Assembly (NCBI GenBank): GCA_021782915.1
Contig: JAJXUK010000001.1
Coordinates: 52,293 to 116,292 of the forward strand
DNA: 64,000 bases
Origin: Actinomycetes bacterium
Lineage (GTDB): Bacteria > Actinomycetota > Acidimicrobiia > Acidimicrobiales > RAAP-2
Direction of reading: 5' to 3'
This document shows, piece by piece, positions 38,525 to 47,019 of the stretch (its first letter is position 1; each line of letters opens with the position of its first letter). A program made the translations under genes and the position numbers. Below the pieces are notes generated by a model. The model was not told the DNA's origin and made no database searches. It saw only the letters and a program-made list of their open reading frames with translations.

Positions 38525-39022
38525 TCACTTCCTGAGCGCGCCGGGCGTCTCGGCCACGAGACGTCCCCAGTCCGCCGACTTGCCACCGCTCTTGCGCAGC
38601 AGCGCCACGTCGTCGAACCACGCCGCCACACCGCGCTCGTGGAGCGCACCGAGCAGGCTCATCGAGGCGAAGGAGCACGCGACCAACGCCTCCATCTCCA
38701 CGCCCGTTCGATTGACGGTCACGACCGCACTGTGAACCTCAATGCCACCGGCGACCGGACGCACATCGACCTCGACGTCGCTCAGATTGATCGGATGGCA
38801 CAAGGGGATGAGCTGCGAGGTCCGCTTGGCCGCCTGGATCCCGCAGAGTCGGGCCACGACGACCGGGTCGAGTCCGTCATCGCCGGCGACGAGGGCGAGC
38901 GCCTCGGTATCCCAGTGAACGACGCAGCCCGCCTCGGCGACTCGTCGCGTGGGCTCCTTGTCCGTGACGTCCACCATTCGCAATCGGCCATCGCCATCAA
39001 GATGCGTGAACGGCTCACTCAC
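38525..39022 (-). CDS. moaC: MoaC paralogue 1 (pyranopterin monophosphate synthase), missing K51, D128 and K131 equivalents
   Basis: 165 residues. MoaC rearranges cyclic GTP product of MoaA into cyclic pyranopterin monophosphate. The family core is clear: FTHLDGDGRLRMVDV, GIQAAKRTSQLIPLCHP, RTGVEMEAL, KSGGKS. Against E. coli MoaC (recalled sequence, same gap-free spacing) H77, E112, E114 and K147 are kept (H76, E109, E111, K144 here), but K51 is G50, D128 is G125 and K131 is H128: the YDMCK helix reads LGALH. These three are catalytic or pocket residues, so this chain alone should be inactive. The second paralogue (46579-47019) keeps exactly these three. Divergent from moaA. Confidence 0.9.
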   Translation of the reverse strand: MSEPFTHLDGDGRLRMVDVTDKEPTRRVAEAGCVVHWDTEALALVAGDDGLDPVVVARLCGIQAAKRTSQLIPLCHPINLSDVEVDVRPVAGGIEVHSAVVTVNRTGVEMEALVACSFASMSLLGALHERGVAAWFDDVALLRKSGGKSADWGRLVAETPGALRK

Positions 39023-39136
39023 CGGACCCTCCGTCGTCTCTCACGCCGCGCGAACGGCGCCGCGGGGCGCCTCCGAATGCTACCGGCGACGCGGGAGCAG
39101 CCCGCCACGACCCGTCGCGTCGCGAGCCCGGCTCGT

Positions 39137-39142
39137 TAGGCT
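39137..39142 (+). promoter_or_regulatory. -10 box of moaA, leaderless spacing
   Basis: TAGGCT followed by 6 nt and the ATG at 39149; this supports the longer start of moaA. Confidence 0.5.
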
Positions 39143-39148
39143 CGCTGC

Positions 39149-40291
39149 ATGAGTGACCACGGCGACCACCCTCGCCTGGTGGGTGCCACGGAGGGATCAC
39201 CGAGCGCGAGCGCGGCGGTGTCGCCCACGGCCATCGCCGTCTCGGTTCGAGCGCATCGTGCGCCCGCGGGCGCCACGGCCGAGCGAGCGGCAACTGCCAT
39301 GCCCACCTCGGGCCCACTCGTGGATCGCTACGGCCGCGTTCACTCGGACCTTCGCATCTCGCTCACGGACCGGTGCAATCTGCGCTGCGTCTACTGCATG
39401 CCCGAGGACATGACCTTTCAGCCCCACGAGCAACTTTTGAGCTTCGACGAGATCGTCACCGTCGCCCGCGTGGGCCGAGAGCTCGGCGTGAACTCGATCC
39501 GCCTGACGGGCGGCGAACCCCTGGTCCGTCGCGGCGTCGTCGACCTCGTCGCGCGCCTGAGCACGCTGGGCTTCGACGACATCGCCATGACCACCAACGC
39601 CACGCGCCTCGCCGCGCTGGCGAAGCCCCTCCGGGCGGCCGGGCTCAGTAGGGTCAACATCAGCTGTGACTCACTGCGTGCCGAGCGATTCGCGACGATT
39701 CGCCGACGTGGCGACCTGGCGACCGTCCTCCACGCGATGGACGTGGCCGAGGCCGTTGGTCTGAGGCCTCTCAAGCTGAACGTGGTGCTCCTGCGGGGAG
39801 TCAACGACGACGAGATCCTCGACTTCGCGGCCTTCGCTCGCCAGACCGGGCGGATCGTACGCTTCATCGAGTTCATGCCCCTAGACGCCCAGGGCCAGTG
39901 GGACCGCGATCGCCTCGTGCCCGGCCGGGACGTCATCGAGCTGATCTCCAGTCGCTGGCCACTTAGGGACGTCGACGGTCCAACGCACCTCGCGCCCGCC
40001 GAGCGCTTCGCCTTCGCCGACGGACGAGGTGAGATCGGACTCATCTCAAGCGTGACCGAGGCCTTCTGCGGCACCTGCAACCGGTTGCGCCTGACCGCGG
40101 ACGGCTCGATCCGCAACTGTCTGTTCAGCAACGAGGAGCACTCAGTGCGCGCGATACTGCGCGCCGGCGGCGGCGACGAGCAGATCGCGATGCTGCTGCG
40201 CCGAGCCGTGTGGGCCAAGTTTCCGGGTCACGCGATCAACGAGCCGCAGTTCCTGCGTCCCGTGCGATCGATGTCGATGATCGGCGGCTGA
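39149..40291 (+). CDS. moaA: GTP 3',8-cyclase MoaA
   Basis: 380 residues. Radical-SAM enzyme for the first step of molybdopterin synthesis. N-terminal cluster CNLRCVYC, the SAM-binding LTGGEPLVRRGVVDLVARL region, and the C-terminal second cluster CGTCNRLRLTADGSIRNCLF. It ends in GG, the tail that MoaA needs for activity. About 50 residues before LVDRYGRVHSDLRIS are extra and low in complexity; the ATG at 39299 would remove them, but the -10 box fits 39149. Diverges from moaC copy 1. Confidence 0.95.
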   Translation: MSDHGDHPRLVGATEGSPSASAAVSPTAIAVSVRAHRAPAGATAERAATAMPTSGPLVDRYGRVHSDLRISLTDRCNLRCVYCMPEDMTFQPHEQLLSFDEIVTVARVGRELGVNSIRLTGGEPLVRRGVVDLVARLSTLGFDDIAMTTNATRLAALAKPLRAAGLSRVNISCDSLRAERFATIRRRGDLATVLHAMDVAEAVGLRPLKLNVVLLRGVNDDEILDFAAFARQTGRIVRFIEFMPLDAQGQWDRDRLVPGRDVIELISSRWPLRDVDGPTHLAPAERFAFADGRGEIGLISSVTEAFCGTCNRLRLTADGSIRNCLFSNEEHSVRAILRAGGGDEQIAMLLRRAVWAKFPGHAINEPQFLRPVRSMSMIGG

Positions 40292-40358
40292 ACCCTTTCG
40301 CGCTGGAACGCGGCGCGTTACTGTGAGTCCAGCGGATCACGACGATGGGGGGTCGGTT

Positions 40359-45720: not shown

Positions 45721-45805
45721 GACGCCGACGCAACGAGACGCGCGCGGCGCACAGACGCCCTGTCGACGCTGAGTCAGGTCGTGTGCCCGTCGGCACGCGC
45801 GCGCC

Positions 45806-46042
45806 ATGAGCCGACTGATCCTGCTCGGTCCGGCCCACGAGGCCGCCGGGATCCGACGTGACGACGTCGACGGCTCGAGCGTCTCCGAGGTCCTGGCCAA
45901 CGCGAGGACGCGCTACGGGCCGAACTTCGCCGCGGTCCTGGCCGTGAGCACCGTGTGGCTCAACGGCGACACGGCCACTCTCACTCAGCCCGTCGGTCCC
46001 TCCGACGAGATCGCGGTCGTACCGCCGGTCTCGGGCGGGTGA
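45806..46042 (+). CDS. moaD: molybdopterin synthase small subunit MoaD
   Basis: 78 residues. Ubiquitin-like sulfur carrier ending VVPPVSGG with the essential C-terminal Gly-Gly; WLNGDTATLTQPVGPSDEIAVVPP is the standard MoaD tail (read in two parts). Pairs with moaE just upstream. Its last 58 bp overlap the 3' end of the convergent mogA gene. No MoeB-type activating enzyme is in the window. Confidence 0.93.
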   Translation: MSRLILLGPAHEAAGIRRDDVDGSSVSEVLANARTRYGPNFAAVLAVSTVWLNGDTATLTQPVGPSDEIAVVPPVSGG

Positions 46043-46500
46043 GCATCGCTGGAGCCCTCCAGCAGGGCGAGGGCGTGGCCCAGCAGCGGCAGAACGGCCT
46101 CGAGGCACTCGATCGCACCCCTCGGCGATCCCGGTGTGTTGAGAACCAGGCTGCGCCCGACAGTGCCGCTTCGGGCCCTCGATAGCGGGCCATAGGGGCT
46201 GCTGGCCCTCATGGCCTCGGCGAAACCGGGCGCCTCACGCTCGAGAACCTTCAGCGTCGCCTCGGGTGTGACGTCCCGGGGTGAGAAACCGGTCCCGCCC
46301 GTCGTGACGACGAGCCCGGCGAAGCCCGCGCAGAGCTCGCGCAGGGCTGAAGCCACCGACTCGAGTCCGTCGGGCACGATGCGCCGCTCGACCACGACAA
46401 AGCCCGCATCGAGGAGTCGGGCAGAGATCGCCGGACCCGCGGTGTCGGTGTGATCGCCGGCGCTCCTCGAGTCCGAGACCGTGAGCACCTTTGCCTGCAT
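45985..46500 (-). CDS. mogA: molybdopterin adenylyltransferase (MogA/MoaB family)
   Basis: 171 residues from the ATG at 46500 (a GTG at 46506 would add two). Adenylylates molybdopterin ahead of MoeA. Motifs: VLTVSDSRSAGDHTDTAGP, VVTTGGTGFSPRDVTPEA and NTPGSPRGAIECLEAVLPLLGH (read in parts), with the Asp residues of the nucleotide site. The C-terminal 18 residues (after HPPETGG) are outside the conserved domain and overlap moaD. Divergent from the second moaC gene. Confidence 0.92.
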   Translation of the reverse strand: MQAKVLTVSDSRSAGDHTDTAGPAISARLLDAGFVVVERRIVPDGLESVASALRELCAGFAGLVVTTGGTGFSPRDVTPEATLKVLEREAPGFAEAMRASSPYGPLSRARSGTVGRSLVLNTPGSPRGAIECLEAVLPLLGHALALLEGSSDAHPPETGGTTAISSEGPTG

Positions 46501-46578
46501 CGCCACGTCACGAGCGTACGTGAGCTCGACCGACCTCGCCGGCAGAACACCCACCAACCTCGTCTGGTACAAAGGTGC

Positions 46579-47019
46579 ATGAACGAGCACGACCCTGAAG
46601 GCCACGGTGCCGGGTCTGAGGTACCCGTCTCCCACCCTGTGATCGGCGAGGGTGCCACCTGTCTCGCGCGTGCTCGCAGCCGTATCACGATGAGTCCGGA
46701 GACGGCGCGCCGCGTCGCGGCAAATGAGATCGCCAAGGGCGACGTGATCGGAGCAGCGCGCTTCGCCGGTATCCAGGCCGCCAAGGACGCCCACACGTAT
46801 CTCTTGGCGCTCGATCCGCTTCCCCTGAGCCGGGTCACAGTAGACGCGCGGGTTGACGCCGATTTCATCGACGTGCTGGCCAGCGCAGAAGCCACAAGCA
46901 CGGAGACGGCTCGCCTCCATGCCCTAACCGCGGCGACCGTGGCCGCCCTCACGGTCTACGACATGTGCAAGTCGGTCGATCGGACCATGACCATCGGCCC
47001 GGTGGCGGTCGTGGACTAG
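46579..47019 (+). CDS. MoaC paralogue 2, keeping K51, D128 and K131 but missing H77, E112, E114 and K147 equivalents
   Basis: 146 residues from the ATG at 46579. Clear MoaC fold: MSPETARRVAANEIAKGDV, AARFAGIQAAK, LTAATVAALTVYDMCKSVDRTM. By E. coli numbering it keeps K51 (K53 here), K67, D128 and K131 (same numbers here). It has lost the KRTxxLIPLCHP segment (KDAHTYLLALDP: H77 is D79), the GVEMEA motif (E112 is R112, E114 is H114) and stops before KSGGKSG (no K147). The frame is intact and conserved where it matters, so it does not look like a pseudogene. It is the mirror image of paralogue 1 and may form a heteromer with it. Divergent from mogA. Confidence 0.85.
   Translation: MNEHDPEGHGAGSEVPVSHPVIGEGATCLARARSRITMSPETARRVAANEIAKGDVIGAARFAGIQAAKDAHTYLLALDPLPLSRVTVDARVDADFIDVLASAEATSTETARLHALTAATVAALTVYDMCKSVDRTMTIGPVAVVD

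Follow-up and report, generated by a model that had tools for sequence, protein, structure and literature searches.

The pathway to the molybdenum cofactor is an ancient one. Its enzyme MoaC, which makes cyclic pyranopterin monophosphate from 3',8-cH2GTP, is a homo-oligomer (a trimer of dimers, with its pocket at the dimer interface) for which two lysines, K51 and K131 in the Escherichia coli numbering used throughout, are essential. Solved MoaCs are available from E. coli (PDB entries 1EKR, 4PYA, and 4PYD), Thermus thermophilus (3JQM), and Mycobacterium tuberculosis (MoaC2, 4FDF), and all are homo-oligomers in which every chain carries both halves of the active site. Two E. coli entries are, by their titles, variants: K51A with 3',8-cH2GTP (4PYA) and D128A (1EKS). 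Here, we analyzed a 64,000-nucleotide stretch, referred to as the window, from an Actinomycetes bacterium of the Acidimicrobiales (RAAP-2; GenBank assembly GCA_021782915.1, contig JAJXUK010000001.1, positions 52,293 to 116,292), in which a molybdenum island encodes two MoaC paralogues, MoaC-B and MoaC-C. They share with the solved MoaCs the family, the predicted fold, the pathway neighbours, and the seven catalytic residues (K51, H77, E112, E114, D128, K131, and K147), but neither island chain has all seven, and both score below the moaC cut-off. To judge by their sequences, MoaC-B and MoaC-C likely form one putative hetero-oligomeric cyclic pyranopterin monophosphate (cPMP) synthase.

Several moaC paralogues in one actinobacterium are also found in M. 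tuberculosis (MoaC1, MoaC2, and MoaC3) (PMC3602415). There, MoaC2 is described as a homohexamer with K62, D137, K140, and H88 all present; complementary losses are absent from the accessible part of that paper, and the comparison made here is with MoaC2. Heteromers of paralogues, which the proposed MoaC pair would resemble in its way of working, are described in trypanosomatids for two unrelated families. The paralogue heterotetramer of deoxyhypusine synthase raises activity 3000-fold, and in the part of the report available, one paralogue is impaired and the other dead (PMC3663545), whereas MoaC-B and MoaC-C lose opposite halves of the pocket. The active form of AdoMetDC is a heterodimer with a dead paralogue, prozyme, which the available text presents as an activator rather than a contributor of one half of the active site (PMC6221367). 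The original prediction, which proposed an obligate hetero-oligomeric MoaC from the window's sequence, knew of no account of such a split, and no report of a split or hetero-oligomeric MoaC was found among the matches listed in the open-licence literature.

Two half-site MoaC paralogues and the shared pocket

The frames of both genes are open. Aligned with E. coli MoaC, MoaC-B has H77, E112, E114, and K147 in place and retains the N-terminal MVDVTxK motif, with G51, G128, and H131 at the other three positions. MoaC-C has K51, D128, and K131, together with D77, R112, and H114, and its chain ends before position 147; H77, E112, E114, and the C-terminal stretch bearing K147 are missing. This amounts to four of the seven catalytic residues in MoaC-B, three in MoaC-C, and seven in the two combined, each paralogue lacking residues that the other keeps. 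Scores against PF01967 (MoaC family) were 109.1 bits for MoaC-B and 102 bits for MoaC-C (curated cut-off, 27). Both proteins remained below the moaC equivalog TIGR00581 (124.4 and 101.8 bits, respectively; cut-off, 141.5) and the MoaC subfamily model NF006870 (133 and 99.4 bits; cut-off, 162). AlphaFold2 single-chain models (mean pLDDT of 82.2 and 87.6) showed the ferredoxin-like MoaC fold, each matching 28 PDB chains at an E value of ≤0.001, all of them MoaC, with best E values of 1.1e-12 for MoaC-B and 5.6e-13 for MoaC-C. The model of MoaC-C has a helix at residues 40 to 47, ahead of K53 (the equivalent of E. coli K51), and that of MoaC-B has no helix there. Since neither the equivalog cut-off nor the set of seven residues is reached by a single chain, MoaC-B and MoaC-C count as MoaC family members only through their domain and predicted fold.

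The division of residues can be compared with a pocket built from two chains. When M. tuberculosis MoaC2 is placed on the GTP-bound MoaC of T. thermophilus, GTP is bonded by three residues of chain A (Lys62, Asp137, and Lys140) and, from chain B, by His88, according to the accessible part of the source (PMC3602415); by sequence, these four are equivalent to E. coli K51, D128, K131, and H77. MoaC-C retains the chain A set, and MoaC-B retains the chain B residue. A split between MoaC-B and MoaC-C along the chain boundary of the dimer pocket is thus supported for the four residues named in that part of the paper. We infer that E112, E114, K147, and MVDVTxK belong with the H77 side, because they are jointly lost in MoaC-C and jointly retained in MoaC-B. 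In the proposed dimer, the two proteins would bind each other, with MoaC-C giving K51, D128, and K131 and MoaC-B giving H77, E112, E114, and K147, which would make one working pocket per dimer and leave the second pocket dead; the product would be cPMP. MoaC-B is likely, from its residue pattern, a half-site MoaC that needs a partner chain.

The same two patterns recur in a set of 264 distinct MoaC sequences, each with a length of ≥100 amino acids. All seven residues were present in 160 of them, while 85 combined none to two of K51, D128, and K131 with three or four of H77, E112, E114, and K147 (all four in 83), and 16 combined all three of the former with none or one of the latter. What remained were two sequences with three of three and three of four and one mixed contig-end fragment with two and one. 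This sample was steered towards MoaC-B and MoaC-C, and the class proportions carry no meaning, unlike the near-absence of other residue patterns, which is meaningful.

As a wider reference, we took 104 complete MoaCs that do not come from the family's own loci (but from the loci of named relatives and of the order; a few of the named ones proved to be Acidimicrobiaceae), in which 33 positions were ≥97% invariant. MoaC-B (n = 84) was less than 50% conserved at nine of the 33 (51, 52, 54, 125, 127, 128, 129, 131, and 137), and MoaC-C (n = 16) was less than 50% conserved at thirteen (11, 15, 21, 26, 63, 76, 77, 109, 110, 111, 112, 114, and 147), with no lost position common to both (hypergeometric P, 0.0044). 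These counts include the window's own copies and exclude MoaC-B rows shorter than 141 amino acids (1 of 85); losses of one kind recurring on this scale are more than a chance event. K51 was lost in 84/84 MoaC-B sequences, and any lysine at positions 47 to 55 was found in 2/84; some retained D128 or an acid there (18/84) or a lysine or arginine at 131 (22/84). On the other side, K51, G52, D53, V54, D128, M129, K131, and M137 were retained in 16/16 MoaC-C sequences. After removal of the trait columns, the 30 MoaC-B rows sampled formed one clade (support, 90) and the 16 MoaC-C rows another (support, 97); one partial MoaC-B row and one partial row of the housekeeping type A (see below) were omitted from this masked tree. 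The two classes therefore do not simply reflect the choice of defining residues. Trees were quick IQ-TREE searches with one support value, and the alignments, hand-chosen for spread, held 16 sequences (A1; the query and 15 of the 16 relatives P0005 to P0020) and 36 sequences (A2; the query and 35 of the 119 listed).

Several claims of the original prediction are borne out by these data, namely, the residue patterns of both proteins, their open frames, and losses that are exact complements (no shared lost position in 84 MoaC-B and 16 MoaC-C sequences). The strand of the MoaC-B gene, which had been left unstated, is minus. The domain matches in Table 1 agree with the claim that both genes lie in a molybdenum island with moaA, a moaD-like gene, moaE, mogA, and moeA.

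Distribution and origin of the half-site proteins

The family set comprised 172 genomes, and the window's genus comprised 99, its own included. Over the family, MoaA was found in 90 genomes, MoaE in 90, and any MoaC in 148. MoaC-B was present in 84 of the 90 genomes with MoaA versus 3 of the 82 without (Fisher P, 2e-37) and in 86 of the 95 with MoaA or MoaE versus 1 of the 77 with neither. In the three MoaA-less carriers (G088, G131, and G133), the gene lies on a short contig (3.1 kb) or close to the end of one. Among the genomes with MoaA and without MoaC-B, three (G030, G038, and G039) hold a second MoaC that has lost K51 and kept D128 and K131, adjoining MoaA in G038 and G039; G125, where a contig end leaves just an N-terminal fragment, was counted as lacking MoaC-B; and the genomes with a MoaC match did not include G056 (59% complete) or G057, whose partial MoaA match contains a stop. 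By co-occurrence, MoaC-B is the copy that goes with the cofactor genes in this family. Its presence was compiled from match lists (those for MoaC, MoaC-B, MoaC-C, and the order hold the best ca. 150 places each), with residues confirmed for G005, G059, G060, and G162, and within the genus, each genome's count of MoaC matches was reconciled with the places listed (ten genomes were looked up separately). Outside the genus, this reconciliation was incomplete, and a weakly matching MoaC-C may exist there.

MoaC as such does not follow the cofactor genes in this way. MoaA was missing from 60 of the 148 genomes with MoaC, and 56 of these also lacked MoaE; the MoaC places listed for the 56, read in part, have housekeeping-like scores, and G131, which belongs to this group, carries MoaC-B as well. 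In an order sample of 298 genomes, a MoaC match was found in 281, mostly one per genome, and MoaA in 256; the 29 best-scoring places outside the window's own genome that were taken up as loci yielded 27 different MoaCs, all complete, with MoaC-B not among them.

MoaC-C was found in 17 genomes, all of the window's genus, and 16 of them also have MoaC-B and MoaA. MoaC-B and MoaC-C share a contig in 12 of these 16, on opposite strands and 7.4 to 9.4 kb apart, and in the two islands that were drawn (G151 and G162), moaA, modBC, modA, moaE, moaD, and mogA lie between them. MoaC-C was not among the loci read from the 80 relatives kept out of 585 confirmed ones, and its closest records possibly lie outside that set.

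A third MoaC, MoaC-A, is encoded in the window's genome (2.15 Mb, 97% complete) on the same contig, 31 kb to the left of the window (G000:C1:20891-21277:-). It has all seven residues, lacks MVDVTxK, and exceeds both curated cut-offs (TIGR00581, 159.8 versus 141.5 bits; NF006870, 172.7 versus 162 bits). Its neighbours, named from sequence reading, are fmdB, tldD-like genes, dxs, ftsEX, prfB, and secA-like genes, and no cofactor genes were found in the 19.9 kb read around it. Individual residues were read in housekeeping copies that had been selected for having the full set of seven, 24 of them from the genus and 32 from the rest of the family. K21 was kept in 44% of those from other genera; in the window's genus, M15, V16, K21, and C76 were kept in none, and the K51 side was intact in all 24. 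The housekeeping copies read are eroded only on the side that MoaC-B keeps (M15, V16, K21, and C76). Elsewhere in the family (f1), a seven-residue MoaC occurs in genomes without MoaA and MoaE, such as at L121 (G144), L123 (G134), L124 (G009), and L125 (G018), and fmdB adjoins it in the first three. A MoaC fragment at a contig end (L110, G106:C170), in a genome without a MoaA match, has A77, E112, P114, D128, K131, and R147 and is possibly decaying.

In a tree of 113 rows, MoaC-C formed one clade (support, 97) that was sister (support, 96) to the island copy L073 of G091, which keeps K51, D128, K131, H77, E112, and E114 and has arginine in place of K147, and the two together stood beside the housekeeping MoaC-A clade (97). 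By its tree position, MoaC-C is a descendant of a duplicated MoaC-A placed in the molybdenum island. Housekeeping-type copies, with all seven residues or six of them, also lie directly beside MoaC-B. Those in G078, G084, G089, and G098 represent one lineage (in G084, a contig end truncates the copy), and that in G093, with arginine at K147, represents another. By this tree, housekeeping-type copies appear to have entered the MoaC-B locus on three or more occasions, and one such line apparently later shed the half supplied by MoaC-B.

The K51-less copies of G030, G037, G038, G039, and G014 formed a clade (96) beside MoaC-B, with a weak sister position (69), and these K51-only losers may represent an earlier stage towards MoaC-B. 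In the copies themselves (L299 in G030, L301 in G038, L302 in G039, L303 in G037, and L304 in G014), K51 is replaced by serine or alanine, the KGD motif is lost, and the YDMCK motif is kept; in four of the five genomes, they lie near MoaA. Along the path that we envisage, the MoaA-linked MoaC would have lost the K51 loop and then the YDMCK motif while relying on a partner chain, after which a partner copy would have entered the island and then dropped the half provided by MoaC-B.

Weighing the hetero-oligomer against other readings

A number of observations weigh against MoaC-B and MoaC-C as two parts of one enzyme. First, a complete MoaC-A exists in the same genome, so that cPMP could arise without the pair. 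Second, the pair is not the usual state, as MoaC-B occurs without MoaC-C in 35 of the 51 MoaC-B genomes of the genus, the commoner condition, and no MoaC-C was found among the matches listed for the 36 MoaC-B genomes outside it; conversely, MoaC-C occurs without MoaC-B in G126 (68% complete). Third, six MoaC-B genomes (G047, G050, G051, G061, G071, and G169) have no other MoaC match. In five of them (all except G047), fmdB, which usually adjoins the housekeeping MoaC, was not found either, and therefore the housekeeping locus is likely missing from the assembly. G047 has fmdB on a 3.2-kb contig without an adjoining MoaC, and no assembly gap accounts for the missing partner. In G058, the start of a K51-bearing MoaC is present at a contig end; in G076, a contig starts with a truncated piece. 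Fourth, when the seven class-defining positions are left out, the losses are 6 and 9 of 26, with none shared, and the P value becomes borderline (0.054). Fifth, the chain side of E112, E114, and K147 derives from the sequence pattern and not from coordinates, and MoaC-B and MoaC-C were modelled as single chains. Sixth, the median pN/pS ratio was higher in MoaC-C (0.47, 9 pairs) than in MoaC-B (0.38, 190 pairs) and complete MoaC (0.32, 1245 pairs), in a comparison that omitted three MoaC-B loci (L150 to L152); the closest MoaC-C pair had a ratio of 0.33. MoaC-C is under purifying but relaxed selection. Finally, the erosion of the housekeeping copies is also seen in MoaA-less genomes and hence is not specific to pairing with MoaC-B; because the 24 copies of the genus include such genomes, erosion alone is not proof of pairing.

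These data narrow the original prediction in several respects. Its statement that no normal MoaC was in view holds for the window but not for the contig, where MoaC-A lies nearby, and that copy (seven residues, 159.8 versus 141.5 bits) is a normal moaC elsewhere in the genome, which the prediction itself had named as evidence against it. The expected co-occurrence was seen from the side of MoaC-C (with MoaC-B in 16 of 17 genomes) and not from that of MoaC-B (without MoaC-C in 35 of 51). Of the hetero-oligomer itself, the match between residue sets and pocket chains (for the four residues given in the accessible part of PMC3602415) and the conserved halves stand. An exclusive two-gene system of MoaC-B and MoaC-C was rejected, given the MoaC-B genomes without MoaC-C and the complete MoaC-A in the same genome.

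The pair is a local variant, degenerated further, of a more widespread arrangement, because MoaC-B lacks MoaC-C in most of its genomes in the genus and no MoaC-C is listed outside it. In relatives without MoaC-C, the partner of MoaC-B would be the housekeeping MoaC or its copy beside MoaC-B. Read over the whole family, the sequences make it fairly probable that the cofactor MoaC is a half-enzyme working on a housekeeping partner and that, in the window's genus, the partner copy shed the other half to yield an obligate split cPMP synthase, with intermediates still alive.

Among the alternatives, it is unlikely that MoaC-A alone makes cPMP and that MoaC-B and MoaC-C are non-catalytic helpers, for instance, scaffolds that bind MoaA or regulators of MoaC-A. 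MoaC-A does have the seven residues and passes the curated moaC cut-off, and an A-type match is listed for all 17 MoaC-C genomes, but the 56 relatives that hold a MoaC without MoaA or MoaE, with listed places that are housekeeping-like, indicate a copy not tied to cPMP. Nor would a helper be expected to keep invariant catalytic residues on exactly one side of the pocket.

Quite improbable is a MoaC-B that acts as a self-sufficient homo-oligomeric cPMP synthase with a rebuilt half-site, leaving MoaC-C accessory or dispensable. MoaC-B tracks MoaA, is the sole MoaC match in six assemblies, and in part of its members has an acid at 128 or a basic residue at 131; against this, there is no common replacement for what was lost, K51 is absent throughout with hardly a lysine nearby, the helix before residue 51 seen in the MoaC-C model is missing from the MoaC-B model, and five of the six assemblies also lack the fmdB neighbour of the housekeeping copy.

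We give very little weight to MoaC-C as a decaying duplicate of MoaC-A whose match with MoaC-B is coincidental. Its long branches, relaxed pN/pS ratio, and truncated C terminus would fit decay, but the eight K51-side positions are kept in every copy despite the loss of most of the other side, the closest pair has the low ratio given above, and the contig is common to MoaC-B in 12 genomes. A simple pseudogene was rejected on the K51-side positions kept in 16/16. That MoaC-B pairs with MoaC-A everywhere and MoaC-C with MoaC-A, not MoaC-B, is scarcely credible: either pair would complete one pocket, MoaC-A having both halves, but of the 17 genomes with MoaC-C, 16 also have MoaC-B, and the MoaC-C gene belongs to the same island as MoaC-B and lies away from the MoaC-A locus.

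The molybdenum island and what a split MoaC would mean

The features of the island are given in Table 1. Its MoaA is the sole MoaA match in the window's genome. The molybdate transport genes are named ModBC and ModA by context, and the gene finder places the likely true start of the MogA/MoaB-type gene near 46554. A search with Rfam at the gathering threshold gave no match at positions 28000 to 50000.

Table 1. Features of the molybdenum island (coordinates refer to the window)
Feature	Coordinates	Strand	Evidence
MobA-like (31376-31903) and FdhD (32410-33213)	31376..33213	+	PF12804, PF02634
FdhF/YdeP-family oxidoreductase, candidate cofactor user	33223..35496	-	TIGR01701 940.3 bits, above cut-off
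MoeA, same island	35714..36961	+	PF03453, PF00994, PF03454
Cytochrome b561, candidate cofactor user	36985..37611	-	PF01292
Sulfite-oxidase-type protein, candidate cofactor user	37637..38317	-	PF00174
MoaC-B, half-site MoaC	38525..39022	-	165 aa, GTG start; PF01967
MoaA, GTP 3',8-cyclase, divergent from MoaC-B	39149..40291	+	TIGR02666 361.9 bits, cut-off 284.05
Fused molybdate permease-ATPase (42278-44143) and binding protein (44140-44934)	42278..44934	-	PF00528, PF00005, PF13531
MoaE, upstream of MoaC-C on its strand	45181..45720	+	PF02391 114.2 bits
MoaD-like (ThiS family), between MoaE and MogA	45806..46042	+	PF02597 34.6 bits, cut-off 22.5; below NCBIfam moaD cut-off
MogA/MoaB-type molybdopterin-binding protein, divergent from MoaC-C	45985..46920	-	PF00994 102.3 bits; TIGR00177 above cut-off
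MoaC-C, half-site MoaC	46579..47019	+	146 aa; PF01967

Three further frames were noted. The gene at 40359-41474 (+), between moaA and a MoaD-like gene, has a weak F510_1955 glycosylhydrolase match, below the cut-off; its product is 79 to 86% identical in the islands of G151, G162, and G097, where MoaC-B is just 50 to 64% identical. The small protein at 41471-41767 (+) has a GG end, stands in a MoaD-like position, and has no Pfam or NCBIfam match; a ThiS-family protein is already encoded at 45806-46042. Adjoining MoaC-C, the short frame at 47142-47456 (-) by eye repeats the C terminus of the frame at 48135-49730 (-), which we take to be an acyl-CoA dehydrogenase, and resembles a truncated duplicate.

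For annotation, these results are a caution that a gene recognised as belonging to the MoaC family may encode just one half of the site and that genomes devoid of MoaA and MoaE can nevertheless retain a complete MoaC. If the proposal is true, a natural MoaC split along the chain boundary of the pocket dissects which residues of each chain must cooperate, a question otherwise approached with mutants, such as the E. coli K51A and D128A variants in the PDB. The relatives show apparent stages, from complete MoaC to the loss of K51, then the loss of K51, D128, and K131, and then the reciprocal loss in the partner, and therefore the path from a homomer to an obligate heteromer could be reconstructed.

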